Below, piece after piece: positions 6,690-26,650 of a stretch of 54,047 nt of DNA. The stretch comes from a virus. Position numbers and translations under genes: made by a program. The first letter of the stretch is position 1; every line of letters starts with the position of its first letter. The DNA lies in IMG/VR virus record IMGVR_UViG_3300035698_015422, positions 1 to 54,047 of that record; one strand, 5' to 3'. The notes under the pieces are model-generated. The model was not told the origin of the DNA and searched no databases. It saw only the letters and a program-made list of their open reading frames with translations.

Positions 6690-7892
6690 TCATGGAATTT
6701 CAATATCTAGGAGTCTTCTGGCGCTTATTGTTGTTTCTCCAGCTCTAGCATTTCTTCGTTTTACGCGTACAAATACTTCCTCATCTTCGCCTGAGAAAGG
6801 ATCGGATATAACTTCTCTTTTGAGTATGTCATCTAGCCTTTTTATAGGCATTCCTTCCTTATCTAGGTTCTCTATGTTGTCTAATATAAAATCATCAGGA
6901 TTACCAGAACGTGCATTTGTATCGGGTTTTGTTTCAAACAAACCATCTACTATTCCGAATGATATTTGTGGAGATGAGAGATATCTTCTAAATGGAACCA
7001 TATCTCCTCCATTTTTATTAGCTAGCATATATGCTGGGACCTTGACATTGAACACGTATTTATGAACACGTTCATCATCAGTAAAATCTTCAGAATTATC
7101 TTGAGACTCAATATCGTCTTCAAAATATGCAACAAACCAATAGCCCTTATCTGTTTCTAATCGATAAGTTTTTCCTTGACCATCGTAGTTTGTCATAATC
7201 TTTTCTAATATTTGTAGCATTTGTTCCTGATAAGAAGACCAAATAACCACTTCATAACTAGCCGTAAACCTTATTGGGAATGGGATAGTTATTATTTCAT
7301 ATATTGTATTGTTTAAATCTATACTAAGCCTGTCGTCACCTGATCCATTGTACTTGTCTCTTCTTGAAGCAACAGTATTTGGAAGATTTCCACTTTCAAG
7401 GCTAGGGTTCAAGAAGTTACTAACAGAAGCAACATTGTCTTGATTTTTCAACCCTTTTTTATTTAATAGATTTTTATATTGAGGATCTTTTTTAGAAATT
7501 CTTTTCTTTATAACATAGTCACCAGTATCCTGGCCTATAGCAGATCCCATATTTTCTTTAGCTTGATTTAGAGCTGTTCTTCTAATCGAAATAATAGGTA
7601 AAATTAATGCACCATTCTTATCTCTAATTGGATTTCTTCTCTCTCTCAATGCGAACCTTTCTCCTGTTGCATAAACAACTGGAACTTTTTTATCGTATTT
7701 TTCGGAACTTTCGTCATCTAAAGAAAGAACATATATTTGATTATCTCTATCAAACAAATTAAACATAGCTCCATCAACATCAGCGATTCCTACTGATGGA
7801 ATGTGGAAATCCGTTGGGATATTGCTACCCTCATACCCAGAAGGAATTCGGTGGCCTGATGGCTTATTAGATTGTCCTTTCTGAGTCGACAT
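6690..7892 (-). CDS. gp15: Tail sheath stabiliser / tail completion protein (gp15-type)
   Basis: Probably caps the tail tube and sheath and joins the tail to the neck. It is 400 residues; T4 gp15 is about 270. The segment from about residue 190 holds YEIITIPFPIRFTASYEVVI and, after it, QEQMLQILEKIM. Then comes a beta-rich stretch with an acidic loop (ESQDNSEDFTDDERVHKYVF). This resembles the gp15 core, in which a strand with the look of YELSIFTRYEDDMFQIVEQI precedes a similar beta segment. The N-terminal 150 residues are charged and probably an addition. Order supports the call: gp13-type, gp14-type, this gene, then sheath and tube, as in T4. I did not verify this with a profile search. Confidence 0.65.
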   Translation of the reverse strand: MSTQKGQSNKPSGHRIPSGYEGSNIPTDFHIPSVGIADVDGAMFNLFDRDNQIYVLSLDDESSEKYDKKVPVVYATGERFALRERRNPIRDKNGALILPIISIRRTALNQAKENMGSAIGQDTGDYVIKKRISKKDPQYKNLLNKKGLKNQDNVASVSNFLNPSLESGNLPNTVASRRDKYNGSGDDRLSIDLNNTIYEIITIPFPIRFTASYEVVIWSSYQEQMLQILEKIMTNYDGQGKTYRLETDKGYWFVAYFEDDIESQDNSEDFTDDERVHKYVFNVKVPAYMLANKNGGDMVPFRRYLSSPQISFGIVDGLFETKPDTNARSGNPDDFILDNIENLDKEGMPIKRLDDILKREVISDPFSGEDEEVFVRVKRRNARAGETTISARRLLDIEIP

Positions 7893-7907
7893 AAGTATAA
7901 CTATCTA

Positions 7908-8582
7908 TTATGAGTCGCCTTCTCCATAAAAACCATTTCCAACTTTTCCAGTTGTTCCTCTTTTAGAGACCTCAGCAGGCTCAGATGGTAAAGGAGCATC
8001 CAATACACCCTTCTTAACTAAATCACGAGTATCCCCTGTCGGTCCTTCCTGATTGTTCTCAAAGCCTCTCTGTTGAACAAACGTTTCTTGTATACCTTCA
8101 TCATTTGCAACAGCTTCCGATGTTGGACCCAAAGGCTCAGATGAGAATACGTCCTTTCTTGTTTGAATTCCTACAACCAAAATTCCACTATCATACTCAA
8201 CTTGTCCATAAATCTTTTTGTAATTTTCGACGCTTGTTATTTCAAAAAATTGTGAACCATAAGAAAAGAAGGAACCATCTTTTATCTGTATTTCTTTCTG
8301 AGTAAGATCTCTTGACTGAATGTAAACATTGATCTTTGCCTTATAGTCTTGCCCAAACCTAGAAGTACTAACCTCTGGTGGTTGCCAATCAACTATGCAG
8401 CTAATTTCTATAGGTTTTTCGAAAACCTTTTTCATAGATTCTTCGTAAACAGGATGCACTTTTGTCTTATCAAAAGATATCTCATAATAGTAAATCTTTT
8501 GTCCAACTATGTCTTTAGTGATCTCTTTAGCAGTATCATTAAAGAAGTCCATCTCTCGCGGACCTATGAAAAGTCTAGGCAT
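7908..8582 (-). CDS. gp14: Neck protein (gp14-type)
   Basis: Probable head-completion or neck protein of 224 residues; T4 gp14 is 256. It opens with MPRLFIGPREMDFFNDTAKE, then alternates beta strands with charged turns (KPIEISCIVDWQPP, KINVYIQSRDLTQKE, YGSQFFEITSVE), consistent with a head-tail adaptor barrel. The C-terminal 70 residues are Gly, Pro and charge rich and probably disordered. It sits between a gp13-type and a gp15-type gene, so the identity leans on synteny. The gene ends 16 bases before the next start. Confidence 0.6.
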   Translation of the reverse strand: MPRLFIGPREMDFFNDTAKEITKDIVGQKIYYYEISFDKTKVHPVYEESMKKVFEKPIEISCIVDWQPPEVSTSRFGQDYKAKINVYIQSRDLTQKEIQIKDGSFFSYGSQFFEITSVENYKKIYGQVEYDSGILVVGIQTRKDVFSSEPLGPTSEAVANDEGIQETFVQQRGFENNQEGPTGDTRDLVKKGVLDAPLPSEPAEVSKRGTTGKVGNGFYGEGDS

Positions 8583-8619: not shown

Positions 8620-9810
8620 TTAGCCAGGAATAATAAACTTTCCTGACGGCATAGGGATCCCACGTAGCTGTCTCATTATATTTTCTGACTTGTTAGCCTG
8701 CTGCTCAACTAAGTTGTAATATAAGAAGTTCTCAAGTTGATCTCTCAATTGAGTAATCAACCTTTCCTTGTCTTCATAACCTCTCGTCAAAAGATCATCA
8801 TAATTCAATTGAACATCAGAGTTTGGAACAGGTATATTTCTTACCTTACCTCTGATGAAACCTAAAGAAATCATACATAAAGCTAGTGTGTAATCTCTCA
8901 CCCACTGTTGACCGACAGCATTTATTGTACTGTAGTCGATATTTCCATACGGAATATTTGAAAGACCAGAAATTCCATTGACCGTATCATCCTGACCAGA
9001 ACCCAAAGCATTAGTATTAAAGTTATATGGATCTCCAGCATAAGCGACTCGAATAAATAGCTTTCTGGGATTGTCCCTGTTCGCAGTTGGGACAGGGTAG
9101 ATTCTAAGCATTTGTCCAACAATACGATAACTGTAATTTGAGCGCCTTACCCTTTCAGAAAGTTGCAACTGTCCCTGTCTAAGAATATCTTCAAAAACAG
9201 GAAGCATGTAGAAAATTGTTTCAGGCGTGAACGATTCAAAATTGAACTCATTATTCAAAAAGTTAATTGCTGATGTCGAATCAAAAAATCTAAAAGCAAT
9301 AGATGGTGAAAAATGAAAAACTTCCGTTACCCTCATTCTGCCAACACTTCCAGATGGAGCCAAATCAAACAATGGCGTTCCATTTCCGTCTTTAAGTTCG
9401 GTCCTAAGATTATAGTCTTGGCGACCCCTTTCAAGTGAGATGGATCCAGATGCCTGATCTTGATATCCACTATATGAGGCCTCCATTGCATATGGTTCGG
9501 CTTGACGAAGTAGAAATTCTAATGTTTCTCTGGGGTATAGGTTTTGTATGTCTGAACCAGTTGGCTGACCTAATACATTTGGAATATTTGATTTAGCATC
9601 AAACTCATTGATGATCGCGCCCCAGGCTAATACGGCCTGCTCAAAGGCTGTCCATATAGTCTTACTTGGAAGCTCTACAGATAAAACATCTCCACCCAAG
9701 GTCCTCTTTACAAACAGGACCATACTATCTGCTTCAGACTGAAATGTTGTGTCTGAATCAAATATTCCAAATGGTGTTGGGTTGAGTACATCTAGAAATG
9801 CCATTACCAT
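8620..9810 (-). CDS. gp13: Neck / head-tail connector protein (gp13-type)
   Basis: Probable head-completion protein that binds the portal after DNA packaging. It is 396 residues; T4 gp13 is 309. Early helices LPSKTIWTAFEQAVLAWG near residues 48-65 match the helical start of gp13-like connectors. The middle contains beta strands (MRVTEVFHFSPSIAFRF, SYRIVGQMLRIYPVP), and the C-terminus has helices with ITQLRDQLENFLYYNLVEQQ. It is first in the neck series gp13-gp14-gp15-gp18-gp18-gp19. The start could be the first ATG or the ATG two codons later; neither has an obvious Shine-Dalgarno. Confidence 0.65.
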   Translation of the reverse strand: MVMAFLDVLNPTPFGIFDSDTTFQSEADSMVLFVKRTLGGDVLSVELPSKTIWTAFEQAVLAWGAIINEFDAKSNIPNVLGQPTGSDIQNLYPRETLEFLLRQAEPYAMEASYSGYQDQASGSISLERGRQDYNLRTELKDGNGTPLFDLAPSGSVGRMRVTEVFHFSPSIAFRFFDSTSAINFLNNEFNFESFTPETIFYMLPVFEDILRQGQLQLSERVRRSNYSYRIVGQMLRIYPVPTANRDNPRKLFIRVAYAGDPYNFNTNALGSGQDDTVNGISGLSNIPYGNIDYSTINAVGQQWVRDYTLALCMISLGFIRGKVRNIPVPNSDVQLNYDDLLTRGYEDKERLITQLRDQLENFLYYNLVEQQANKSENIMRQLRGIPMPSGKFIIPG

Positions 9811-9852: not shown

Positions 9853-10515
9853 CTAGACTTTACTCCATAGATCACGCCTAAACCATTTCGCCACTTCTTT
9901 ATAGAATATTTTCGAAGCCTGATCTATATTCAATCCTTCACTAAAGTCTACACTTCCATCAGCTTTGATAGTAATTCCCTCACCAGATTCTGTGGTTATT
10001 ACAATGTTTTTTTCAATATTGTTTGTAATAATTTTGTTCTCAATTCTAGTTGGTGTAGTTCCCGTATCTAAACTCAAGTCCTCGTAAACGGATTCAGAAT
10101 TTAGGTCCAATATAGAATAGTGGATATCAACCATGTTATCGCTACCAAATTTAGCTCGTACTGAAGTCCTGTAATCTATTGGAAAACCATCATCACTCAA
10201 TCTACATTTTATTTTATGAAATTCAGACTCTAATTCAGACAATATGGATGATCTAGAAGACTTATTAGAAATCTCTTTAATCTTCTTATTCAATCCTGTG
10301 ACTATTGTATCTCTAATAGTTTTTGCATCACTTTCCCATTCTTGAGTTGATTTAGAAAGGTACGGCTCTGGAACCCTTATTGCTGAAAATAGCTTTTTTC
10401 GAAAATAAGCGATATCAATTGATTCTGTACCAGAACCATCACAAATTTTGCAGTCAACTTTAGAAGTCAATAGATTGTGACTTCCAGCACCCTTACATTC
10501 TATACATTTTTTCAT
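9853..10515 (-). CDS. Portal-like fragment with an N-terminal CxxCxGxG zinc motif
   Basis: A 220-residue protein. Residues 4-28 hold two CxxCxGxG motifs (CIECKGAG and CKICDGSG), the pattern of the DnaJ zinc finger, so one zinc is probably bound. From about residue 34 it resembles the portal of this same phage: YFRKKLFSAIRVPEPYL matches portal YIQRKLFAALKVPKPYL. Further on, FGSDNMVDIHYSILDLNS lines up in the same order with portal FDGEDLIDFSLSLSNPS. Only the part matching the portal clip/stem and C-terminal region is present. The next gene upstream is a truncated terminase paralogue, 14 bases away. Function is unknown; a regulator or modifier of packaging is one inference, and a decaying duplication is the alternative. 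Confidence 0.6.
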   Translation of the reverse strand: MKKCIECKGAGSHNLLTSKVDCKICDGSGTESIDIAYFRKKLFSAIRVPEPYLSKSTQEWESDAKTIRDTIVTGLNKKIKEISNKSSRSSILSELESEFHKIKCRLSDDGFPIDYRTSVRAKFGSDNMVDIHYSILDLNSESVYEDLSLDTGTTPTRIENKIITNNIEKNIVITTESGEGITIKADGSVDFSEGLNIDQASKIFYKEVAKWFRRDLWSKV

Positions 10516-10529
10516 AACATTATCACTCT

Positions 10530-11273
10530 CTAATTTGGAAACCTAGCTAAAAAATCGGTCCTAATTTGCTCTATGGGCAAATACCTAGTTCTCTCATAAA
10601 ACCAAAAACTCTCACTGTTTGCAAACGGGTGTCGACTGCCATCACTTTTCTTTCTTCCAAGACGACTTACATGATATGGTAAACAAATTCTATGTTTTTC
10701 AACCATTTCTCTAAAGAAAGATTTTTTATTTTTTGAATTAGGTGTAGAACTAACTATAAGCTTACCATTGCCCACTAAACATGGAGAGAGACAAGATATT
10801 GCTTTTGATAAGTTAGACATAAAATCTGCTTCTTCGACAATAATTAAGTCAAATCTTTCCCCGTGGACCAGAGTTTCAGATGAAACAGCTTTTATTTTGC
10901 CACCTCCAACAAACATTATTTCACCAGGCCAACCACCTCTTGATGTAGTTAAAGTGTTTGTGCTATCACAAGAAAGAAAACATTTTTTTATAAACAATTC
11001 TCCATAATCATGACTAGTTGTAACATATAGTACACTTTTTCCTGACTTGGCAATCCAACTTGCATAAAAAGAAAGAAGAGTTGTTACTCCAATCATTCTA
11101 GCTTTTACTACAAAACTTGGTCTTGACTGATTCTCAAAGTCATATATAAGCTTTTTATGATAATCTTCAATTGTTACTTTTACTTTTGATTTCTTACTGC
11201 GAACCATCCCAGACTTAAAGTAGTCAATAAAATATTTCGAGCTTATATCTTGAACAATGCTGTCGAGCCTCAT
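10530..11273 (-). CDS. Terminase large-subunit ATPase-domain paralogue lacking the nuclease
   Basis: A 247-residue protein matching only the N-terminal motor domain of the large terminase encoded in the same window. Walker A-like KARMIGVTT at 57-65 parallels KARQLGLST in the terminase. Walker B is DLIIVEEA at about 142-149 (LLIVDEA in the terminase). The coupling motif SSTPNS at 175-180 parallels LSTPNG. The C-terminal FWFYERTRYLPIEQIRTDF parallels KWFAEQTRQLSRKEIAQEH. It stops exactly where the RNase H nuclease domain would begin. The 94-base gap upstream contains a 6-bp hairpin (GCGTTT / AAACGC) without a T-run. It precedes the portal-like fragment gene. It could be a motor accessory, a competitor of the terminase, or a relic. 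Confidence 0.75.
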   Translation of the reverse strand: MRLDSIVQDISSKYFIDYFKSGMVRSKKSKVKVTIEDYHKKLIYDFENQSRPSFVVKARMIGVTTLLSFYASWIAKSGKSVLYVTTSHDYGELFIKKCFLSCDSTNTLTTSRGGWPGEIMFVGGGKIKAVSSETLVHGERFDLIIVEEADFMSNLSKAISCLSPCLVGNGKLIVSSTPNSKNKKSFFREMVEKHRICLPYHVSRLGRKKSDGSRHPFANSESFWFYERTRYLPIEQIRTDFLARFPN

Positions 11274-11367: not shown

Positions 11368-11919
11368 TTATAAGCTCGACCAGAACACTTCATCATCTTC
11401 ATTTACCATTTTGACACCATCTAATGACAGAGTATCAAATGGAATCTTTTTACTTGGTACTTCTTGAGCCTTATCTCCACCATATAAAGATATGTGAGCC
11501 TTGTAGTCTGGGAAGTCTGAAGGTGGAATTCCATGCTTCTGTATACCATTGTCAATTTTGGAAAAAAGAGAGTTTAATTCTTTACTATCAAGCAAAATTA
11601 CAATGGAATCTCCCAATGCCTCCAACTTTGTTGCTTTGGCAGAAATTGACTTAGACTCTAATGAGTTTACAAATGGCAGTATGTCTTCTAGCTTCCTGTC
11701 TCCCTTCCAATACCTTATTGTACAATGCAACTCTTCTGGTGGGATAACTCGAACATCTGATGGTATATCTAGTGTATTTCTAAATTTTACGATTTGTTTT
11801 ATTGCATCATCTGTTGGGTAGATCGCAATCATAGTAGAGGGCTGATCCGTTTCAATCTTCTCTGTTATAAGATTTTGAATATATTCCCTTAGCAAGGACA
11901 TGCTATAAATATGGTTCAT
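11368..11919 (-). CDS. 2H phosphoesterase (LigT / cyclic phosphodiesterase-like)
   Basis: A 183-residue protein with the two HxT/S motifs of the 2H superfamily: HCT at residues 65-67 (ELHCTIRYW) and HIS at 142-144 (AHISLYGG). Length and spacing fit the two-lobed LigT fold. Family members hydrolyse 2',3'-cyclic or 2'-5' phosphodiester bonds; the phage anti-CBASS protein Acb1 belongs to this superfamily, so cleavage of a defence cyclic nucleotide is possible but inferred. The N-terminus MSLLREYIQNLITEK from the seventh residue resembles the LRE-type leader on several other proteins here. The first ATG is preferred because AAAGGA lies about 10 bases before it. It lies in an accessory island between capsid and neck genes. 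Confidence 0.75.
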   Translation of the reverse strand: MNHIYSMSLLREYIQNLITEKIETDQPSTMIAIYPTDDAIKQIVKFRNTLDIPSDVRVIPPEELHCTIRYWKGDRKLEDILPFVNSLESKSISAKATKLEALGDSIVILLDSKELNSLFSKIDNGIQKHGIPPSDFPDYKAHISLYGGDKAQEVPSKKIPFDTLSLDGVKMVNEDDEVFWSSL

Positions 11920-12218: not shown

Positions 12219-12228
12219 AAATAAAAAA

Positions 12229-12251
12229 AAAGGCTCCCAAAAGGAGCCTTT
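12229..12251. terminator. Strong bidirectional intrinsic terminator after the capsid gene
   Basis: AAAGGCTCC and GGAGCCTTT pair around a CAAAA loop. On the minus strand the hairpin is followed by a long T-run (complement of AAATAAAAAAAAA), an efficient terminator just beyond the major capsid stop. On the plus strand it is followed by TTTTCT and would end the small plus-strand unit. It separates the head operon from the accessory island. Confidence 0.85.
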
Positions 12252-12269: not shown

Positions 12270-14141
12270 CTAGATTACGTTGAGGTCAAGAACCGTGATG
12301 GTTCCGTAGAAGTCGCTTCTGACCATCTTCTTGCCATAGCGAGTCATTACACCCTTACGTGGTGTAAAATCTTCTGGCGCAAAGATAGTTGGAGTAACGA
12401 TAAGTGGTACGTATGGTGCGTAGACGTATCCAGTCTCAAGGTAGTTTCCGCCCTTGAATCCAACAAGGATCTTATTTCGTGGGAAGTAAGGATCTTTGTA
12501 TAGAGTGAATCGGTTAGCAACCTGTCCAATATTCTCAGCACCAACAGTCATTGGGTTAGAGATCTGTCCGTTTCCATCAATCTTGTATTGAGCCTTGTAC
12601 ATTGCTGTTTGCTCAATGATTGTTGCAACATCAGGACCGATGACACAGAAGTTAGCGGAGCCACGAAGAGTCTTCTTGTGAATCTCATTTGCAACGTCAC
12701 AAATGGTCTCAATAAGAGTTTCGTACCACTCTCTAACCGTACCAGTGAACTGAGGTCCAGTGGAAAGTGTGCTTCGAAGATCTACTGGTAAACCAGTTCT
12801 CTTATTTACAAACCTACCTGGAGCACGTGACCAGTAGTAGTTAGCACCGTTCGCTTCCATAAGAAGGTCATTAAGAACTTCTCTATCGATGTCCAATGCA
12901 ACTTGCTCAGATAGAATCTTTGTAAGCTCAACCTCGGCATCCAAGCTGTGGAATGCGTTAAGGTCTTGAGCAAGCTCAGGGGACCAACGCGCGCGCAACT
13001 TACGAGTTGTAGCAACAACACTGATTTGCTCAATCTTGATATCAATCTCTGGGATTGCAGGGGAGGGCGTAGCAGCGAAGTCTGACTCGAATGATGGGAC
13101 GGTAAGAGTATCACCATCGGTTCCACCAACATCTAGTGAGTCAGAAACAGCAGCACTAATAGTAACAGCACCAGTTGGTACAGCTCCGCCATTAGTTAGG
13201 CGAATGACTGTAGCGATGTGATCACCATTGATGTCAGGCTGGAACAATCCGCTTGAAGGCGTAAAGTTACCACGCATGTTCAATCTACGTAGATTGAGAA
13301 TGCCTTGACCACCCTGATATGCTTCTCCCCATGGAACAGCGTTGTTTGGCGTTCCAAAGGAGCTAATGGCAATTTGGCTAACTTGCTGAAGGTCAGCAGT
13401 TGCCAAGGCACCTGTGATGTTTGCAATCGGTAAGAATGCGAAGCAGTAATCTAGTGCGTTGTCAGAGACATCAGTCTCAAGCTGAGGGTCGAAATGAGCC
13501 CAACGTGCGCTGGAACCAGTCATTTCGCTTAAGCTAGCAACAGTACTACCAGAAACAAACCCACCAACACCATCGAATACACCAATTTTCTGTGTTTCAA
13601 GTGTGCCAATAGATGCAGCAGATGCATGTACCTTGGTGTATCCGTGACCTACTAAGTCATACTGTCCACCCGTTGCAGTTGAACCAGAACGTACTCCAGC
13701 CCCAGTTGGGTTGTTGTATAGTGATTCACCACTCTTGTAAATGGATGCAGTATCGCTTGCAGCACCACCGACATTGTTGCCATAGGTGTAATCTAGGTAG
13801 AATAGCAAACCAGCTGGTAAGCTCATTGGCTGAATCGAGATCAACTCGTTAGCAACAAGACCACCAAACACGCGGCGAACGATTGGGAACGCTACGTTGG
13901 AGAAACCACGAACTTGACCACTGCTGGTTAGTGCGGCTCCACCTGTTGATAGGCTGCTGGACTCACGAAGAATCTCTGCTGCTTGGTTTTCAAGCATTCG
14001 AGCCATATTCTCTTTGTCGTAGCCACCAAGGCCACGCAATAGGCCAGTTTCGTGCCACTTACTGGACAAGCGTTTTGCTTCGTGTCCTAGGTGACGTGAC
14101 CTAATGTCCTCTGTTAATGTATCTAATGAAAATGTAGACAT
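12270..14141 (-). CDS. gp23: Major capsid protein (gp23-type)
   Basis: A 623-residue capsid subunit; T4 gp23 is 521. The N-terminus has the gp23-like block SSKWHETGLLRGLGGYDKEN followed by MARMLENQAAEILRES, then NVAFPIVRRVFGGLVANELI and an LDYTYG segment. These features mark the HK97-fold start in T4-type capsid proteins. The C-terminal half has VVATTRKLRARWSPELAQDL and a late GNYLETGYVYAPYVPLIVTP stretch. The N-terminal part is probably removed by the prohead protease; ILRE-S near residue 58 is one possible cleavage site. AGAGGA precedes the start. It is last in the head operon, after the scaffold, and is followed by a strong terminator. Confidence 0.92.
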   Translation of the reverse strand: MSTFSLDTLTEDIRSRHLGHEAKRLSSKWHETGLLRGLGGYDKENMARMLENQAAEILRESSSLSTGGAALTSSGQVRGFSNVAFPIVRRVFGGLVANELISIQPMSLPAGLLFYLDYTYGNNVGGAASDTASIYKSGESLYNNPTGAGVRSGSTATGGQYDLVGHGYTKVHASAASIGTLETQKIGVFDGVGGFVSGSTVASLSEMTGSSARWAHFDPQLETDVSDNALDYCFAFLPIANITGALATADLQQVSQIAISSFGTPNNAVPWGEAYQGGQGILNLRRLNMRGNFTPSSGLFQPDINGDHIATVIRLTNGGAVPTGAVTISAAVSDSLDVGGTDGDTLTVPSFESDFAATPSPAIPEIDIKIEQISVVATTRKLRARWSPELAQDLNAFHSLDAEVELTKILSEQVALDIDREVLNDLLMEANGANYYWSRAPGRFVNKRTGLPVDLRSTLSTGPQFTGTVREWYETLIETICDVANEIHKKTLRGSANFCVIGPDVATIIEQTAMYKAQYKIDGNGQISNPMTVGAENIGQVANRFTLYKDPYFPRNKILVGFKGGNYLETGYVYAPYVPLIVTPTIFAPEDFTPRKGVMTRYGKKMVRSDFYGTITVLDLNVI

Positions 14142-19397: not shown

Positions 19398-20251
19398 TAG
19401 CTTCTCCCGCTGGTTAGCTCATACTTTAGCTTTGCAATATCTAAAAATCTTTCGATTTTCTCATCGTCAACTAACCCGTCAGCATTTTCTGACAAAATCA
19501 ATTCTTTTGCTTTATCTAACTTGTTCTCTAAATAGACATTCTTACCAGCATTTTTTTGCAAGTAAGAATCAATCTCGTCAAGAGCGTTATCCTTAATGCC
19601 TTTTAGATGAGCAGATACTAAATCCTTATTACTTTCAAAAACATAAGACTTAATAAGGTTTGCTTGATCAGATGTAAGATTGTTCTTATACTTCTCATTC
19701 AACTTTTTTGTCATCAGTTTTTCAACAAGAGGATCTGAGCTTCTGATTGCCTCTTCATCTAATATTGTTACTTTTTTTTCTGAAAGTAACCACTCCTTCA
19801 ATGTCTGCTCAAATTGAGCTACCTTTACAATGTCTTCAACATCATCAGATCTCCACTCATTAAGAAGTGTTTGGATAGTTGCATAAATGCGATACTCTCC
19901 CTCATTTATTCTTTTATCATAGAATTTTCTATCATTTATCTTATGATTAATGCTTCTTATAAGCATTGACTTCTCATGATCAAGTTTATTTTTATCATAC
20001 TTTCTAGAAGCTTGCTTTGCTGCCTCAAGAATAGAATCAGCTACTGACTCAGATTTTACTGTGTGAGCAAATAATGAATGAAAAAGTCGAAATTCCTTAA
20101 ACAACTCTGTATTTTTAGAAAAACATCTTTTGACAATTGAATGAGCCACCTTCTTTTTATCCTCATTCTCTTCCAGTATTGCGTCAGAGATCGTTTGAAC
20201 AAGGAATTCGTAAAGAAGACCAGTATTTCTCTTTTTGTTATGCCTTATCAT
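19397..20251 (-). CDS. Hypothetical helical protein between portal and protease
   Basis: A 284-residue, strongly charged, all-helical protein opening MIRHNKKRNTGLLYEFLVQT, with many Lys, Glu and Asp residues and no transmembrane segment. It occupies the interval where T4 has gp67 and gp68 between portal and protease, but it is larger and shows no motif I can tie to them. It is coupled by TAATG to the portal stop and the protease start, so it is an integral head-operon gene. A prohead core or portal-cofactor role is inferred. Confidence 0.75.
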   Translation of the reverse strand: MIRHNKKRNTGLLYEFLVQTISDAILEENEDKKKVAHSIVKRCFSKNTELFKEFRLFHSLFAHTVKSESVADSILEAAKQASRKYDKNKLDHEKSMLIRSINHKINDRKFYDKRINEGEYRIYATIQTLLNEWRSDDVEDIVKVAQFEQTLKEWLLSEKKVTILDEEAIRSSDPLVEKLMTKKLNEKYKNNLTSDQANLIKSYVFESNKDLVSAHLKGIKDNALDEIDSYLQKNAGKNVYLENKLDKAKELILSENADGLVDDEKIERFLDIAKLKYELTSGRS

Positions 20252-23200
20252 TATTCGTCATCTCCTGTTATTTTGAATTCATCCTCATCTGACTCTATTA
20301 TAAGATTACTAAGAACTTTCTTTGAATCCTTACTTATATTTATGCTTTTTGGAAGCGATTTCAGAGCATCTTGAATATGCATATTCAATCTAGTATGTTT
20401 ATTTTCAACATCTTCCAACTTTGACATCGATCTTTCAACAGAATCAGTCAATTTAAACGGACTTCCCTTGAATACCCTATCTCCATAAACATCCTTGTAG
20501 TGCGGATCATCGTGCTTTAATGGGTCTCCTGGGTTTGGTGTCTTCAGTCCCTTAGGTCCTCGATCCTTCGTTCTACTAGGTCTTCGATTATTATGCTTAT
20601 ATCTAGCCAATTGATTCTGCTTGACCACTGGGACGTATGCGCCAACTTCAGTTTCAGATGTAAATTCAAACGACTCATCATCTTCATCCTCTCCCAATAT
20701 AAAGAATTCACCATCGGATAGAACTTCTCCATCCTTCTCTCCCTCATCTGCAAACAGATCCTCTTCATCCCCACCTTCATCGTCGCCACCGTCTTCGTCA
20801 CCACCTTCATCCCCAAGATCGAAAGCATCCCCTCCATCCTCAAGTCCTCCTCCGAGGTCTCCACCAAAATCATCTCCTCCGAGGTCTCCTCCGAACCCTC
20901 CACCGCCTCCGCCAAAGCCTCCGCCACCTCCACCACCAAATCCACCATCACCATCACCATCGCCTCCAAAGTCTTCAAGTTTAGCTTTTCTCAAAAGCTC
21001 TCTAACCTGATCCTCTTCCAGCTTCTCAATATAGTCATCTGTCATATCAAAAACTTCTTTATAGAAATACCTGTCCGACAATAGGCCTTCTGGACGTGTC
21101 CCAGCTATCTCTAGTTTAGTTCTAATAAGCTCTAGCTTCTGCTGTTGAGCCATAGTCGAAGGATTTGATAAACTCAAACTAAAATCAATTAAGTCTTCCC
21201 CATCAAACCCACTTGATGCTAAGTGAATAGCCGCAATCTTATTAAGTTCAGCAATTACAACTTGTTGAATTTGCTGAATAGATCTTGCAAAACGAATATC
21301 TTCTTGAGCCAAGTTAGCCTTAGAGCCAAGACCTTCGTCAAACCCCAAATATGGCTTAGGAACCTTTAGTGCCGCGAACAACTTTCTCTGGATGTACTCA
21401 ACATCATCAATTGCTGTGGTGTTCGCACCACCTGGCAATGTCTCAATCCTTGTTGTTGTCTGATCTCCACGTACAGGAATAAAGTAATCAATATCTACAC
21501 TCCATGGATTATATCGCTGATCCACTCTTCCTGTTGTACTATCTACAACCTCTTGTGACTTAAGTGTCGTTTTTGCATTCTCAATAATTTGAGGAACATC
21601 ATTCGGTGGAGCATTTGCAACATCAATATAAAACACTCTTCTCTCAGGGCTTCTAATGACACGATATACAAGCATCGCATCCTCAGCCATAACGAGCTGT
21701 CTCCAAATACGTCTTGCAGGCTCCAACACAGAAGAACCATATGGTAAGAATGTATCATTTCCTAAAAGACGAAAATGTGCCACTTGCCAGTTTTCAAGAA
21801 CCTGATTTCCTTCTGTAACCCATCTAAATCTAACTGCAAATGGATTGTTCGGATCAAATCCTTCTTCTCTTTCAATTTCATTTACTGGGATTGGGTGGGC
21901 GTTGATAATTCCGTAACCTGGCGCTACATCCAATAAAAGCATGTGATCACCATACTTGCACAAATTTCGAACCCATGACCTATTCACAAATTCAAAGTTC
22001 AAAGTATCATAAAATAATTCATCCAAAATCTTTTTAATTTTTGGATTCTCTGAATGAATATGTAGTGACCTTCCCTTGTCATCCTTCGCCACCGTCTCAT
22101 CAGCATAAATGTCTACTGCACTCGCAATCTCAGGTGTATTATGGGAAATAGCAGAGTCAGTAGCGAAATTCTTATACCCATCAACAGTTAGATCATAAAG
22201 GTCGATCTCACCATAATATTCAATAGAGACAATTTCCAGACCATCAGTCCACTCTATTTCAGTAAATCCATGATAAGGATCGGATTTGAAACTTTCAAAA
22301 TCATAGTGACGACGAAACATCGCTAGGTCTGACGCCGGACTATCTCCACCACGAAAACCAAAATCTGATAATTGATCCACAAAATTCTTAAAACCAAGTA
22401 AGTTATTTGAACTTTCTTGCATTGCAAGTCTTATAAAATCTTCGTCCGGTATCTTATGACTACACCTATTTTTATATCGAACAGCTTCCATTTCAGATCT
22501 TACAACCTTAGTTGAATCCTTTACATAGTCACCAACAGACAAGTCTTCAACCTTTGCATATATGCCATTTTGCGTCATTAGACGATGATTGGAACTTGCA
22601 ATTATATGCTTTTCGTTATTAAACGTAATTTTCCAAGAATGATCTGTTCTTGTTTTTCTTGCTTGCTTTGCCCAAACTGGTGTTGACAAACCCAACTTAG
22701 GATCCCATGACCATACTAAAAATTCCTTATCGACTCCTTTATCAGCTAATTCCTTAATAGTTTGATAACCATCATTTACTGTATCAATATTCGTATCTCC
22801 ATGAATACAGTATTCCATCTCTGAATTATGTACAAAACAAATTCCTGAACTATTTTCATCACATACAGCAAAATTGTGATAATTCGGAACAGTCAGATCG
22901 TACACTGGAACTTTTATACCCAATTCATGTATAGCAACTACTTTATGATTTTCATAATTTTCTATAAAACTATCAAAACTTTCATATCCTGCCCATTTTA
23001 CCCTATTTAGTACTTTAAATTTACTAGTATTGAGTTTCTTACTAAGGGATCCCAATGTCATTCCACACTCATAAGCATTATATACAGATTGTGCTGTTAG
23101 GCTTTTATCTGCGTTGGCATTGTCAGAACCTTTTTGATCTGTTCTTCCTGCATTAAATTTTCCTGGTTTAACAGTCTTGTTGTAGTCAATAAGTCGATCA

Positions 23201-24087
23201 ACACAATCTCCCCACTTAGGGTGGCTCAACCTCTTTTTAGTTGACTCATCTAGATTTTCTCTAAGATCTCCACCATCAGACCATCTAGAGAGCATAACTT
23301 TAGACATATATTCTCTAGCTTTCGGATCATCAAATCTTTTGTTGTTTATTTTTGCATGTAACGACAAATGATCTTTTTCCGTCATCACAGAAAGATTGTC
23401 TAAAGCATTATCTTCAGCTATAAAGTTTTCATGATGAACATGAAGTCCTGTTGATTTATTTAAAGTCAATCCAGTTTTTAATTCTGCGACCAAAATATGC
23501 TCTGGTTTCCATCCACGACTGAATGAATAGATGTATCTGTAAGGATTTTTTTGTGTTTTATTAAATTTTTTCCTATAAAATGGCATTACAGCCATACCAG
23601 CTGATAGCTCGTCAGCTCTACAATAAGAACCATCTCTCAACATGATTGGGTGATTTTTGGTACATTTTAACTTTAAGCCTTTGTCAAATTCAACCTCAAT
23701 AATCTCTTCCACCTTAGTCATCCATGCATTTGATATAGGGGAACATACAGTAGAGTCCGTATTCCGATCATATGAAAACACATAAATTTTCTCTCCCCTA
23801 CTATGACGAGCAGCCATTTCCTCGATCGTCATCCACCCTTGTGGTGTGTTCGTTGGAACCTTTGTATCACCACTCAAACAAAAATCCGCATAACGTGAGA
23901 GTCTATCGTACTGACCATAAGCGTTTAGGCTATTGCCATAGACGGTTGCGGTTGATTTTCGAAATACATCTAGGGCAGATGACTTGATATTTCCGGTGTG
24001 AACACCTTTGATTTTTCGTTTTACTACGGGACCAGCTCTAAAGAGTCTGGTAAGTTTTGAGAATAGATTCTGTCGTTTTGTTGCCAT
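20251..24087 (-). CDS. gp20: Portal protein (gp20-type) interrupted by two inteins
   Basis: The 1278-residue precursor should splice to a portal of about 702 residues that forms the dodecameric DNA channel; T4 gp20 is 524. Exteins are residues 1-69 (ending RYADF), 422-426 (SEMEY) and 651-1278 (starting TPEIASAVDIYADE). Joined, they read ADFSEMEYTPEIASAVDIYADE, an uninterrupted portal helix. Portal landmarks include VRFRWVTEGNQVLENWQVAH, FLPYGSSVLEPARRIW and YIQRKLFAALKVPKPYL. After the core comes a Gly-rich then acidic tail and a basic end. ATAGGAGCACAAACA precedes the ATG; the stop overlaps the next start as TAATG. Without splicing the portal would be non-functional. Confidence 0.93.
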   Translation of the reverse strand: MATKRQNLFSKLTRLFRAGPVVKRKIKGVHTGNIKSSALDVFRKSTATVYGNSLNAYGQYDRLSRYADFCLSGDTKVPTNTPQGWMTIEEMAARHSRGEKIYVFSYDRNTDSTVCSPISNAWMTKVEEIIEVEFDKGLKLKCTKNHPIMLRDGSYCRADELSAGMAVMPFYRKKFNKTQKNPYRYIYSFSRGWKPEHILVAELKTGLTLNKSTGLHVHHENFIAEDNALDNLSVMTEKDHLSLHAKINNKRFDDPKAREYMSKVMLSRWSDGGDLRENLDESTKKRLSHPKWGDCVDRLIDYNKTVKPGKFNAGRTDQKGSDNANADKSLTAQSVYNAYECGMTLGSLSKKLNTSKFKVLNRVKWAGYESFDSFIENYENHKVVAIHELGIKVPVYDLTVPNYHNFAVCDENSSGICFVHNSEMEYCIHGDTNIDTVNDGYQTIKELADKGVDKEFLVWSWDPKLGLSTPVWAKQARKTRTDHSWKITFNNEKHIIASSNHRLMTQNGIYAKVEDLSVGDYVKDSTKVVRSEMEAVRYKNRCSHKIPDEDFIRLAMQESSNNLLGFKNFVDQLSDFGFRGGDSPASDLAMFRRHYDFESFKSDPYHGFTEIEWTDGLEIVSIEYYGEIDLYDLTVDGYKNFATDSAISHNTPEIASAVDIYADETVAKDDKGRSLHIHSENPKIKKILDELFYDTLNFEFVNRSWVRNLCKYGDHMLLLDVAPGYGIINAHPIPVNEIEREEGFDPNNPFAVRFRWVTEGNQVLENWQVAHFRLLGNDTFLPYGSSVLEPARRIWRQLVMAEDAMLVYRVIRSPERRVFYIDVANAPPNDVPQIIENAKTTLKSQEVVDSTTGRVDQRYNPWSVDIDYFIPVRGDQTTTRIETLPGGANTTAIDDVEYIQRKLFAALKVPKPYLGFDEGLGSKANLAQEDIRFARSIQQIQQVVIAELNKIAAIHLASSGFDGEDLIDFSLSLSNPSTMAQQQKLELIRTKLEIAGTRPEGLLSDRYFYKEVFDMTDDYIEKLEEDQVRELLRKAKLEDFGGDGDGDGGFGGGGGGGFGGGGGGFGGDLGGDDFGGDLGGGLEDGGDAFDLGDEGGDEDGGDDEGGDEEDLFADEGEKDGEVLSDGEFFILGEDEDDESFEFTSETEVGAYVPVVKQNQLARYKHNNRRPSRTKDRGPKGLKTPNPGDPLKHDDPHYKDVYGDRVFKGSPFKLTDSVERSMSKLEDVENKHTRLNMHIQDALKSLPKSINISKDSKKVLSNLIIESDEDEFKITGDDE
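20757..20979 (-). repeat. Gly-rich and Asp/Glu-rich low-complexity tail of the portal
   Basis: A simple-sequence tract codes for GGFGGGGGGG, FGGDLGGDDFGGD and GGDEDGGDDEGGDEE. It makes a flexible, strongly acidic extension after the portal core. The antisense strand shows a long Pro/Ser open frame as a by-product, which is not a gene. Confidence 0.7.
22138..22809 (-). other. Intein 2 of the portal: mini-intein without endonuclease
   Basis: Residues 427-650 of the precursor (224 residues). Block A is CIHGDTNID at the N-terminus. A block B-like stretch is ASSNHRLMT. Block F is DLYDLTVDGYKNFATDS and block G is ISHN, with Thr as the +1 residue. These are the Hint-domain elements needed for protein splicing. 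No LAGLIDADG, HNH or GIY-YIG motif is seen in the central part, so this is a mini-intein or one that has lost its homing endonuclease. It begins only five codons after the end of intein 1. Confidence 0.9.
22825..23880 (-). mobile_element. Intein 1 of the portal with HNH homing endonuclease
   Basis: Residues 70-421 of the precursor (352 residues). Block A is CLSGDTKV and block B is TKNHPIML. Block F is VYDLTVPNYHNFAV and block G is GICFVHN, followed by Ser as the +1 residue. The centre carries an HNH-type endonuclease around residues 216-244 (LHVHHENF ... NALDNLSV ... KDHLSLHAK). A helix-turn-helix-like DNA-binding region follows near 344-372 (TLGSLSKKLNTSKFKVLNRV). A complete splicing domain plus nuclease means it may still home into intein-free portal genes. 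Confidence 0.9.
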
Positions 24088-24584: not shown

Positions 24585-25013
24585 CTATTCCTCTTTAGCC
24601 ATTATATTTCCAATACTTATGGGCTTTGCTGCGATCGCCATATAGGCTAGATGAATCAGTCTTGCTTGAATGATTTTTTCAGAATCCTCGATGCTTATAG
24701 AAGATTTCTTCCAAGCATCTAGTGAGTGCTTACTTGTCTTAATCCAGGTTTCTAATTTTAAAAACTCAGAGGTTGATAAGCTATGGGCAAAGACCTTTAT
24801 GGACTTTAGTGAAATATCATTAGATTCGGTGTACATTTCATATGCAAGTCTTTCCCACTGACTTATTTTTACGATATTGAAACCTTTCCACCCCTTGTTC
24901 TTATAATAGGACAGCTTTTCATCAAGAAGTCTCCAGGCTCTTTTCTTAAATAAAAAGTCCATAAAGTCTTCAACTGCTACGGTAAAGAGTTTATATTCGT
25001 ACATATCCTTCAT
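24585..25013 (-). CDS. Hypothetical helical protein coupled to the terminase
   Basis: About 142 residues from the ATG that overlaps the terminase stop as ATGA (MKDMYEYKLFTVAVEDFMDF). An earlier in-frame ATG six codons upstream would overlap the terminase by 22 bases and is less likely. The protein is helical, Trp- and Lys-rich (ISQWERLAYEMYT, LKLETWIKTSKHSLDAWKKS), without a recognised motif. Tight coupling suggests a role with the terminase. A small terminase subunit is one possibility, given that no other candidate is seen, but nothing in the sequence proves it. Confidence 0.65.
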   Translation of the reverse strand: MKDMYEYKLFTVAVEDFMDFLFKKRAWRLLDEKLSYYKNKGWKGFNIVKISQWERLAYEMYTESNDISLKSIKVFAHSLSTSEFLKLETWIKTSKHSLDAWKKSSISIEDSEKIIQARLIHLAYMAIAAKPISIGNIMAKEE

Positions 25014-26650
25014 GAAATAAGCCAAGCCCAATGTTTAGATAGAGCTTGAGCAGGCTGTTTTTTCTTTACGCTAAAGCTATTTGAGCCTGCTCCAGCGATT
25101 GGCATAAATATGCTGTAATCTTCCTGCTTTGTAGGAGATATTATTTCATCTAATTTTACAGAATCCTGGGTTATAGCGGATATAAGGGATTTTCCATCTT
25201 CTTCTGAAAATGTACTAGAATCAACGGTGTCTAATAGCCAAGAACCAATAGCTAATGTTATAACTAAGTCATCGTTGTTACCCTTCTGTGCTGCTACCTT
25301 ATTGCTAGCAAGCCAAACAAATGTTCTAAGCTCAGCATAAGTTCTTTCGGAATAGATGTTGATAGAAACGTTTCTTAGCAACTCCTCCATTTTTGTAAGC
25401 ATGACATTTCTTTTTTGTCCTGATGTAAAGATTCCCAAATCACCAGATGGTTTTATTAGATCATCAGCTTTTGACAGCATAGAGCCCCAAATATCTAATG
25501 TTTTTTGCTTGTTGTTGTAAATTCTTGGATACTTTAGATCACACAGCTTTTGAATTGTCGCGTATCCAACACTATTATTTTCTGGACATACGAGCGCCCT
25601 ATTGTACCTCAATCCTACCTCGTTTATCATTTCTGCAAATCTATCAGGTGGTAATCTACCCTTATATTCTGCAACCTGATCCCCTGTTTCACTATCGATA
25701 ATAATGAAAGCAGAATAGTCTTTGCCATCTCCTCTGGCTGTATCGGCTGATAAGATGTATTTTTTTTGTGGTTTTGGATCCGCCCAAATCCACAACATTC
25801 GATCTTGCCCAAGCCTTCTTATGGGTGGCTTGACTATCTTTCTTATTTTTTCTAATACTTCTACGTCAAGATATGTGTCACCAGAAGCAATGAAGTCACA
25901 TTCGTGCTCTTGTGCAATTTCTTTTCGACTAAGCTGTCTGGTCTGCTCTGCAAACCACTTATCATCATGTTCTGGGTGTACTGTCCACGGAAGGCATATG
26001 TCATTAAACTCATTGTCATTTAGACGAGCTTTTGTATATATTTCGTGAAACTTATTTCCTGTACCATTTGGTGTTGATAGTAAAATTGCGCGACCACCCA
26101 TAGAAAGTGTCGGATAAAGACCCTTCCAAAGATCGTCAAAGTCCTTTACGAAAGCAGCCTCATCAACGATTAGGAGAGACAATGCTTCTGAACGACCAGC
26201 ATCTGGTGAGGTTGGAACTGCCTTAAGAGTAGAGTCTCCACTTCTAGAACTAGTCTCAATAGATTGGACGGTCTCTGAACTAATATCGCACAAAATCAAC
26301 CATTCTGGAAGGTTCTTAATTATAAATTTACATTTCTTAATAAAGTTTTTAGCAGTTCTAAGATTTGTAGCAATAACAAGGATGTTACTGTTTGGACAAA
26401 AAAGAATCATCCAAACTGCGTATGCAGCAGTAACAGTTGATAGTCCTAGCTGCCTTGCCTTTAGAACAATATTGAACTTATGATCCAAGAATTGCTTTAC
26501 TGCATCATCTTGAAACGGATAAGTTTCAAATGGTATGTTCCCCCTAGTCGGGTGTTGAATTCTACAATAGTTGTTGAAGAAATAAGAGGGGTCAGAGCCA
26601 CACTTCAAAACCTCTTGCGTATGGCGAGATATTATTGATTTAGTCGCCAT
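25010..26650 (-). CDS. gp17: Terminase large subunit (gp17-type)
   Basis: Packaging motor and headful nuclease of 546 residues; T4 gp17 is 610. The ATPase domain has Walker A-like KARQLGLST at 64-72, Walker B LLIVDEA at 159-165 with the catalytic Glu, and coupling motif LSTPNGTGN at 191-199. The RNase H-like nuclease has Asp303 (LSADTARGDGKDYSAF), Glu357 (CPENNS) and Asp460/461 (NNDDLVITLAIGSW). All expected catalytic residues are present. It translocates DNA through the portal encoded downstream. A shorter paralogue without nuclease lies about 14 kb away. Confidence 0.95.
   Translation of the reverse strand: MATKSIISRHTQEVLKCGSDPSYFFNNYCRIQHPTRGNIPFETYPFQDDAVKQFLDHKFNIVLKARQLGLSTVTAAYAVWMILFCPNSNILVIATNLRTAKNFIKKCKFIIKNLPEWLILCDISSETVQSIETSSRSGDSTLKAVPTSPDAGRSEALSLLIVDEAAFVKDFDDLWKGLYPTLSMGGRAILLSTPNGTGNKFHEIYTKARLNDNEFNDICLPWTVHPEHDDKWFAEQTRQLSRKEIAQEHECDFIASGDTYLDVEVLEKIRKIVKPPIRRLGQDRMLWIWADPKPQKKYILSADTARGDGKDYSAFIIIDSETGDQVAEYKGRLPPDRFAEMINEVGLRYNRALVCPENNSVGYATIQKLCDLKYPRIYNNKQKTLDIWGSMLSKADDLIKPSGDLGIFTSGQKRNVMLTKMEELLRNVSINIYSERTYAELRTFVWLASNKVAAQKGNNDDLVITLAIGSWLLDTVDSSTFSEEDGKSLISAITQDSVKLDEIISPTKQEDYSIFMPIAGAGSNSFSVKKKQPAQALSKHWAWLIS

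Follow-up and report, generated by a model that had tools for sequence, protein, structure and literature searches.

A terminase-like and a portal-like ORF between head genes of a T4-like phage, and scattered pieces of head proteins in its lineage

The window, i.e., the whole 54,047-base virus record analyzed here, carries a T4-like head and tail module that includes a gp21-like protease and two sheath genes. Between its major capsid protein (MCP) gene (12270–14141; Gp23, E 1.1e-72) and a downstream gene encoding a neck/head-tail adaptor-like protein (8620–9810; phrog_211, E 1.1e-5) is an interval that holds two ORFs and a gene for a 2H phosphoesterase (Acb1/LigT-like; 11368–11919), all on the minus strand. 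Its upstream limit is a terminator-like hairpin and T-run behind the MCP gene (12223–12251, minus strand), predicted from sequence. The two ORFs are referred to as TLA (a terminase-ATPase-like ORF of 247 aa; 10530–11273) and PLF (an ORF of 220 aa with a zinc motif and a portal-like segment; 9853–10515). They were compared with the true terminase large subunit (TerL; 25010–26650) and the true portal (1278 aa; 20251–24087) of the same phage, likewise on the minus strand. The portal gene contains two intein-like inserts (CLSGDT...VHNS and CIHGDT...SHNT), and long portal ORFs are also present in several relatives. The 2H phosphoesterase has Pfam matches to Acb1 (anti-CBASS; E 3.9e-9) and LigT, and a relative at L010 5851–6384 (51%). 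PADLOC gave no relevant match to known anti-phage defence families. The T4 late-promoter-like sequence TATAAATA was dismissed, as its frequency equals that expected by chance, and TLA, like the neck gene, has no clear Shine-Dalgarno sequence.

TLA matches the phage's own TerL with 30% identity (E 4e-17), and its residues 13–245 match a family HMM built from 22 terminase sequences (E 5e-17, compared with E 1.1 for the best of 200 shuffles). The HMM match stops at position 249 of 544, leaving TLA without the C-terminal RNase H-like nuclease. By sequence and alignment, TLA contains a Walker A-like VVKARMIGVTT (11079–11111), a Walker B-like FDLIIVEEAD (10824–10853), and a C-motif-like STPN (10737–10748; all on the minus strand), and retains most of the ATPase motif residues (K57, R59, G62, T65, E148, and STPN). 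The original prediction of a match to the ATPase half of the terminase, with KARMIGVTT, a Walker B (here IIVEEADF), and STPN among its motifs and an end before the nuclease, is borne out by these results, and it is sound to regard TLA as a diverged paralogue of the phage's own terminase over its ATPase half. An AlphaFold2 model of the 473-aa frame found in sister strains (see below) has a moderately confident core at residues 61–180 (pLDDT mostly 70–87, lower near 101–120), with the ATPase domain of T4 gp17 as its best solved match in Foldseek (E 4.7e-8). As the alignment behind it included terminase sequences, the model lends the fold no independent support.

PLF has the predicted CxxCxGxG zinc motif at its N-terminus (CxxCxGxG...CxxCxGxG; 10426–10506, minus strand), with a Pfam DnaJ_CXXCXGXG match (E 0.008) below the cut-off and only two motifs vs. 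the four repeats of the DnaJ central domain. Next to it is a portal-like segment (10282–10419, minus strand), in which PLF residues 33–78 align with portal residues 894–951 by profile alignment (E 2.3e-6). BLASTP against the own portal gave E 2e-6 over 28 aa, and Portal_T4 gave E 2.3e-4, below the Pfam cut-off. Colinearity of PLF with the portal had been proposed over two blocks, of which the first, of about 50 residues, stands, whereas the second (FGSDNMVDIHYS in one protein and FDGEDLIDFSLS in the other) is at shuffle level, with 53 of 905 reported shuffles scoring as high. PLF probably carries a genuine piece of portal, with about 50 residues aligning and no wing-stem-clip-crown homology at the level of the fold. 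A model of PLF from its single sequence was poor (mean pLDDT 47.7). Intein or extein remnants were considered by eye and rejected; both intein-like inserts lie upstream of the PLF segment (portal residues 894–951). Another stand-alone portal piece, a 126-aa ORF on the opposite strand (L083 305–685, minus strand; portal HMM 246–304, E 1e-7), is present in a more distant relative.

Whether TLA and PLF are separate depends on an A-run at 10534–10536 (minus strand). Five near-identical contigs were compared, with L001, L006, and L009 representing the same contig. The window, L003, and L004 have AAA and read CCAAATTAG, giving two ORFs, whereas L001/L009 and L002, which are near-identical phage from other samples, have AAAA and read CCAAAATTAG, giving a single 473-aa frame. 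In order, this frame consists of a leader, a terminase ATPase-like domain without nuclease, the zinc motif (into which it runs on where the terminase nuclease would begin), the portal helix, and a C-terminus of no assigned kind. The claim that both reading frames are intact therefore holds for the window, L003, and L004, and fails for L001/L009 and L002. As one extra A joins both ORFs in the sister contigs, the locus is one gene with an indel polymorphism and not a neat pair of genes. Either form may be the ancestral one: the fused frame is open throughout, and PLF alone begins with a plausible Met-Lys-Lys-Cys zinc N-terminus. The difference between AAA and AAAA is possibly an assembly error in the A-run.

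Relatives were gathered by scans with the MCP and neck genes, and TLA orthologues were found in the MCP-to-neck interval of L011 (5681–6325, 214 aa) and L091 (3954–4586, 210 aa). The three proteins match each other (E 2e-6 for window–L091, E 2e-12 for L011–L091, and z 15 for window–L011), and open TLA frames of 210–247 aa are thus kept at one site in three phages, the MCPs of the other two being 73–75% identical to the window's. In a terminase tree the three TLAs group together outside all true terminases; their branches are very long (3.5–9 changes per site), which makes the placement unsure. By these sequence comparisons, the terminase-like part is shown to be an old, fast-evolving paralogue. 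Its Walker A, Walker B, and C-motif are not kept across the family: the window copy keeps most of them, whereas the L011 (VISESRSGMTT, SSNLS) and L091 (IYKKRIVGMSV, ISELT) copies have decayed motifs that lost Walker A or C-motif residues. Such decay indicates that catalysis is not what maintains TLA. No portal piece was detectable beside the L011 or L091 TLA. A second ORF in L091 (4599–5231), considered as a match to the TLA end or to PLF, has an xWFR tail similar by eye and was rejected, as its similarity is at shuffle level. Decay of both genes in relatives, which the original prediction had named as evidence against itself, is seen only in part: the indel of the sister strains points to it, whereas three diverged phages all retain the terminase-like gene at one site.

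Database searches with TLA, PLF, the L011 TLA, and an MCP piece of L010 recovered, as close relatives in IMG/VR, only members of the same population or contig, so that the window TLA is found in one population among them, and no close relatives of these ORFs in GTDB genomes. Among GenBank phages, TLA had four weak matches, two of which are annotated as large terminase, and PLF had none. At the site occupied by TLA elsewhere, L010 instead carries, as a copy of 221 aa, the insertion domain of the MCP (E 4.5e-27 by HMM). Many relatives also have a zinc-finger/homing-endonuclease-like ORF of about 470–484 aa after the MCP gene (e.g., L011 2808–4232, L012 12095–13549, L028 2590–4017, L081 2655–4070, and L021 12117–13565), which may drive turnover in the MCP–neck interval.

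Searching whole records with the MCP revealed extra MCP pieces in the 322-kb record that holds L091 (referred to as G001), the 76.7-kb record that holds L010 (G002), and L011, whereas all 27 of the other records matched by the MCP gave a single match. The pieces are short (about 30–80 residues, one about 190) and embedded in unrelated ORFs. Examples include a DGP-repeat protein with MCP 77–132 at its end (G001 234944–235597), two adjacent leader-bearing ORFs, one with MCP 387–431 and the other with MCP 559–586 followed out of order by 390–430, a 285-aa ORF with MCP 361–439, a 150-aa ORF of G002 with MCP 79–121, and a 69-aa ORF of L011. The same portal helix as in PLF has a weak match in a 77-aa ORF (G001 210291–210524, E 0.005). 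Further, each genome's ORFs were compared with themselves, with ORFs of at least 300 aa as donors and smaller ORFs as recipients of pieces. The MCP was the sole donor among 79 large genes in G001 and among 25 in G002, while the controls G005 and G006 had no head-gene donor, only probable tail-fibre and homing-endonuclease-like families. Apparent sheath pieces in G001 were an artefact of stretch ends and were absent from this later self-comparison. The DGP-repeat proteins of G001 were treated as a repeat family of their own; ORFs that bear REDGPA/DGP repeats number in the dozens (L137–L153) and are dispersed throughout that genome.

This wider pattern went beyond the original prediction. Most of the recovered pieces correspond to the segments that are best conserved, and the pattern may therefore be inflated by detection bias. 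In alignment, the recurrent piece at MCP 78–125 falls in the N-terminal quarter of T4 gp23, which contains Gol. At sites where the lineage's own MCP, TerL, or portal differs from the rest of the family, 13 pieces side with the family 37 times and with their own lineage 18 times, which indicates that the pieces are old or from outside. Recent self-duplication was ruled out as their source, since the pieces fit the head proteins of other phages as well or better. Residues shared with T4 gp23 were kept at 60 of 103 sites vs. 59 of 135 for residues conserved only in the family (p 0.036), a post hoc comparison open to detection bias, so that preferential retention of the gp23-shared residues is weak.

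A further common feature is a short N-terminal leader, M[KR]LxxI, shared by several of the ORFs with head-protein pieces. In TLA it reads MRLDSIVQDISSKYFI (11226–11273, minus strand) and resembles the MCP N-terminus FSLDTLTEDIRSRH, being the second best match to it among the N-termini scored. The motif M[KNRE]L[KDENSQ]xI is enriched in this lineage at N-termini (11 of 479 ORFs in G001, 5 of 89 in G002, and 1 of 43 in the window), compared with 1 of 164 and 0 of 319 ORFs in the control genomes and 2 of 1890 internal methionines in G001; two further G001 ORFs have it just inside the first listed start. It is present on the window TLA, the L091 TLA, and several MCP-piece ORFs, with a near variant on the L011 TLA. 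A common leader is thus found on unrelated proteins in this lineage, and by its sequence it looks like a targeting signal. Many leader-bearing ORFs are without a head-protein piece. In the same interval, relatives share two more conserved families of small leader-bearing genes (MRLQEI... and MKLSNI...; L011 6689–6988 and 7006–7377, and the first 1.5 kb of L108), with shuffle z of 21 and 9.8. The N-terminus of the 2H phosphoesterase, MSLLREYIQNLITEKIE, resembles the other common leader class.

As the best explanation, we tentatively suggest that TLA, PLF, and the ORFs with MCP pieces encode lineage-specific, chimeric, non-catalytic mimics of head proteins that act through binding. As relatives have lost catalysis yet retain the domain, binding is the functional role that needs the fewest assumptions. 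Each accessory protein would act through binding instead of catalysis by keeping a contact surface, i.e., the ATPase face of TerL, the portal helix, or core segments of the MCP, and would thereby compete with the real head protein for a partner. This partner would most likely be outside the phage's own assembly line, either a host sensor of head proteins or the head assembly of a rival phage, and the leader may load the mimics into the head in the manner of T4 capsid-targeting sequences. Interference with rival phages, as in the original suggestion that rival genomes are excluded, and a role in the phage's own head are both possible. Against the reading as mimics, the frame is disrupted in three of the five near-identical contigs, as expected under weak selection, the window TLA keeps most ATPase motifs, and many leader ORFs are free of head-protein pieces.

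The main rival, and a serious one if somewhat unlikely in our estimate, is that the ORFs are debris or products of gene birth: partial copies of head genes, made by illegitimate recombination, would accumulate in the MCP–neck interval and other accessory regions, fuse with small leader-bearing ORFs, drift, and vanish with no selected function. The one-base indel that splits or fuses the frame between sister strains, the permuted pieces at G001 7790–8104, the different cargo of the interval in each relative, the homing-endonuclease-like ORFs within it, and the ease with which conserved segments are detected are all consistent with such an origin. It accounts less well for a TLA frame kept open at one site in three diverged phages, a single donor out of 79 large genes, a leader shared among the ORFs, and pieces that are old rather than recent copies. 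If the pieces are not selected, the lineage would be an unusually clear case of ORF birth from one donor, the major capsid gene. If they are selected, as mimicry of head proteins would entail, the lineage would re-use fragments of the most recognisable phage proteins as binding decoys or poisons, and would raise the concrete question of what surfaces hosts or rivals recognise on TerL, portal, and MCP.

Two narrower roles are both improbable. In the first, the proteins would serve the phage's own assembly or reside inside its virion, with the leader as a capsid-targeting sequence and the pieces docking on the prohead core, portal, or motor, so as to regulate assembly or be injected. It has a precedent in T4, in which ten N-terminal residues of IPIII suffice for head loading (PMC9026906), and fits the likeness of the window leader to the MCP N-terminus. 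The gp21-type cleavage logo [IL]xE is in agreement with it in G001, where it occurs within the first 20 residues of 7 of 11 leader ORFs vs. 97 of 468 others (p 0.003), but it is not enriched in the leader ORFs of G002 (1 of 5) and absent from the leader of the window TLA; moreover, leader ORFs also occur at scattered sites distant from head genes, and apart from that of the window, leaders on average have little likeness to the MCP N-terminus. The second, to which we give slightly less credence, is that the ORFs are decoys of immune sensors, with TerL pieces (Avs1–3), portal pieces (Avs4), and Gol-region or core MCP pieces (Lit/CapRel-like) occupying sensors without activating them, some with a head-loading leader.

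Less probable still, and not supported, is the originally proposed second mini packaging module, in which TLA and PLF would form a terminase–portal pair for the phage or a satellite. The adjoining pieces and the motif residues kept in the window TLA are compatible with a motor, but the nuclease domain is absent, and the portal part, with about 50 residues from a single helical region, is too small to make a portal. Walker A or C-motif residues are missing from the orthologues, which also lack a portal-like neighbour; sister strains have one frame, and no small-terminase-like or satellite gene was seen nearby.

Among known systems, the ATPase domain of T4 gp17 (Pfam Terminase_6N, phrog_2) has the same fold class and motif order as TLA, which differs from a T4-type TerL by the lack of a nuclease, about 30% identity, decayed motifs in its orthologues, the location between the MCP and neck genes, and a zinc/portal C-terminus. 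Short terminases of jumbo phages (e.g., Pectobacterium phage CBB A0A1L2CV01 and Agrobacterium phage Atu_ph07 A0A2L0V0U8) are, like TLA, stand-alone and ATPase-sized (235–244 aa). These possibly represent exons, or the halves of a true terminase that is split, whereas the window phage has a full TerL as well. With the T4-type portal gp20 (Pfam Portal_T4, phrog_213), PLF has one helical segment of about 50 residues in common, and no part of the portal fold beyond it was detected in PLF. The internal proteins of T4 (IPI–III and Alt) and the ORFs of this lineage are alike in having a short common N-terminal leader on otherwise unrelated small proteins. The leader of the lineage differs in sequence from the T4 capsid-targeting sequence, and the T4 proteins are not described as pieces of head proteins in the text consulted.

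The open-access literature searched contains no description of such a set of ORFs with head-protein pieces, and no decoy of comparable kind derived from an immunity trigger is described in the literature searched. As their parts are recognisable, the proteins belong with accessory mimics or partial paralogues rather than in a new category. Among immune systems, Avs1–Avs4 are sensors of the large terminase, the portal, or a further phage protein (PMC12931631), Lit acts via Gol, a stretch of 29 residues within the first quarter of gp23, the most conserved part (PMC3014915), and CapRel senses capsid proteins (PMC9712102). The triggers of these systems, i.e., TerL and portal for Avs1–4 and the MCP for Lit/Gol and CapRel, are the same three proteins that supply the pieces in this lineage.
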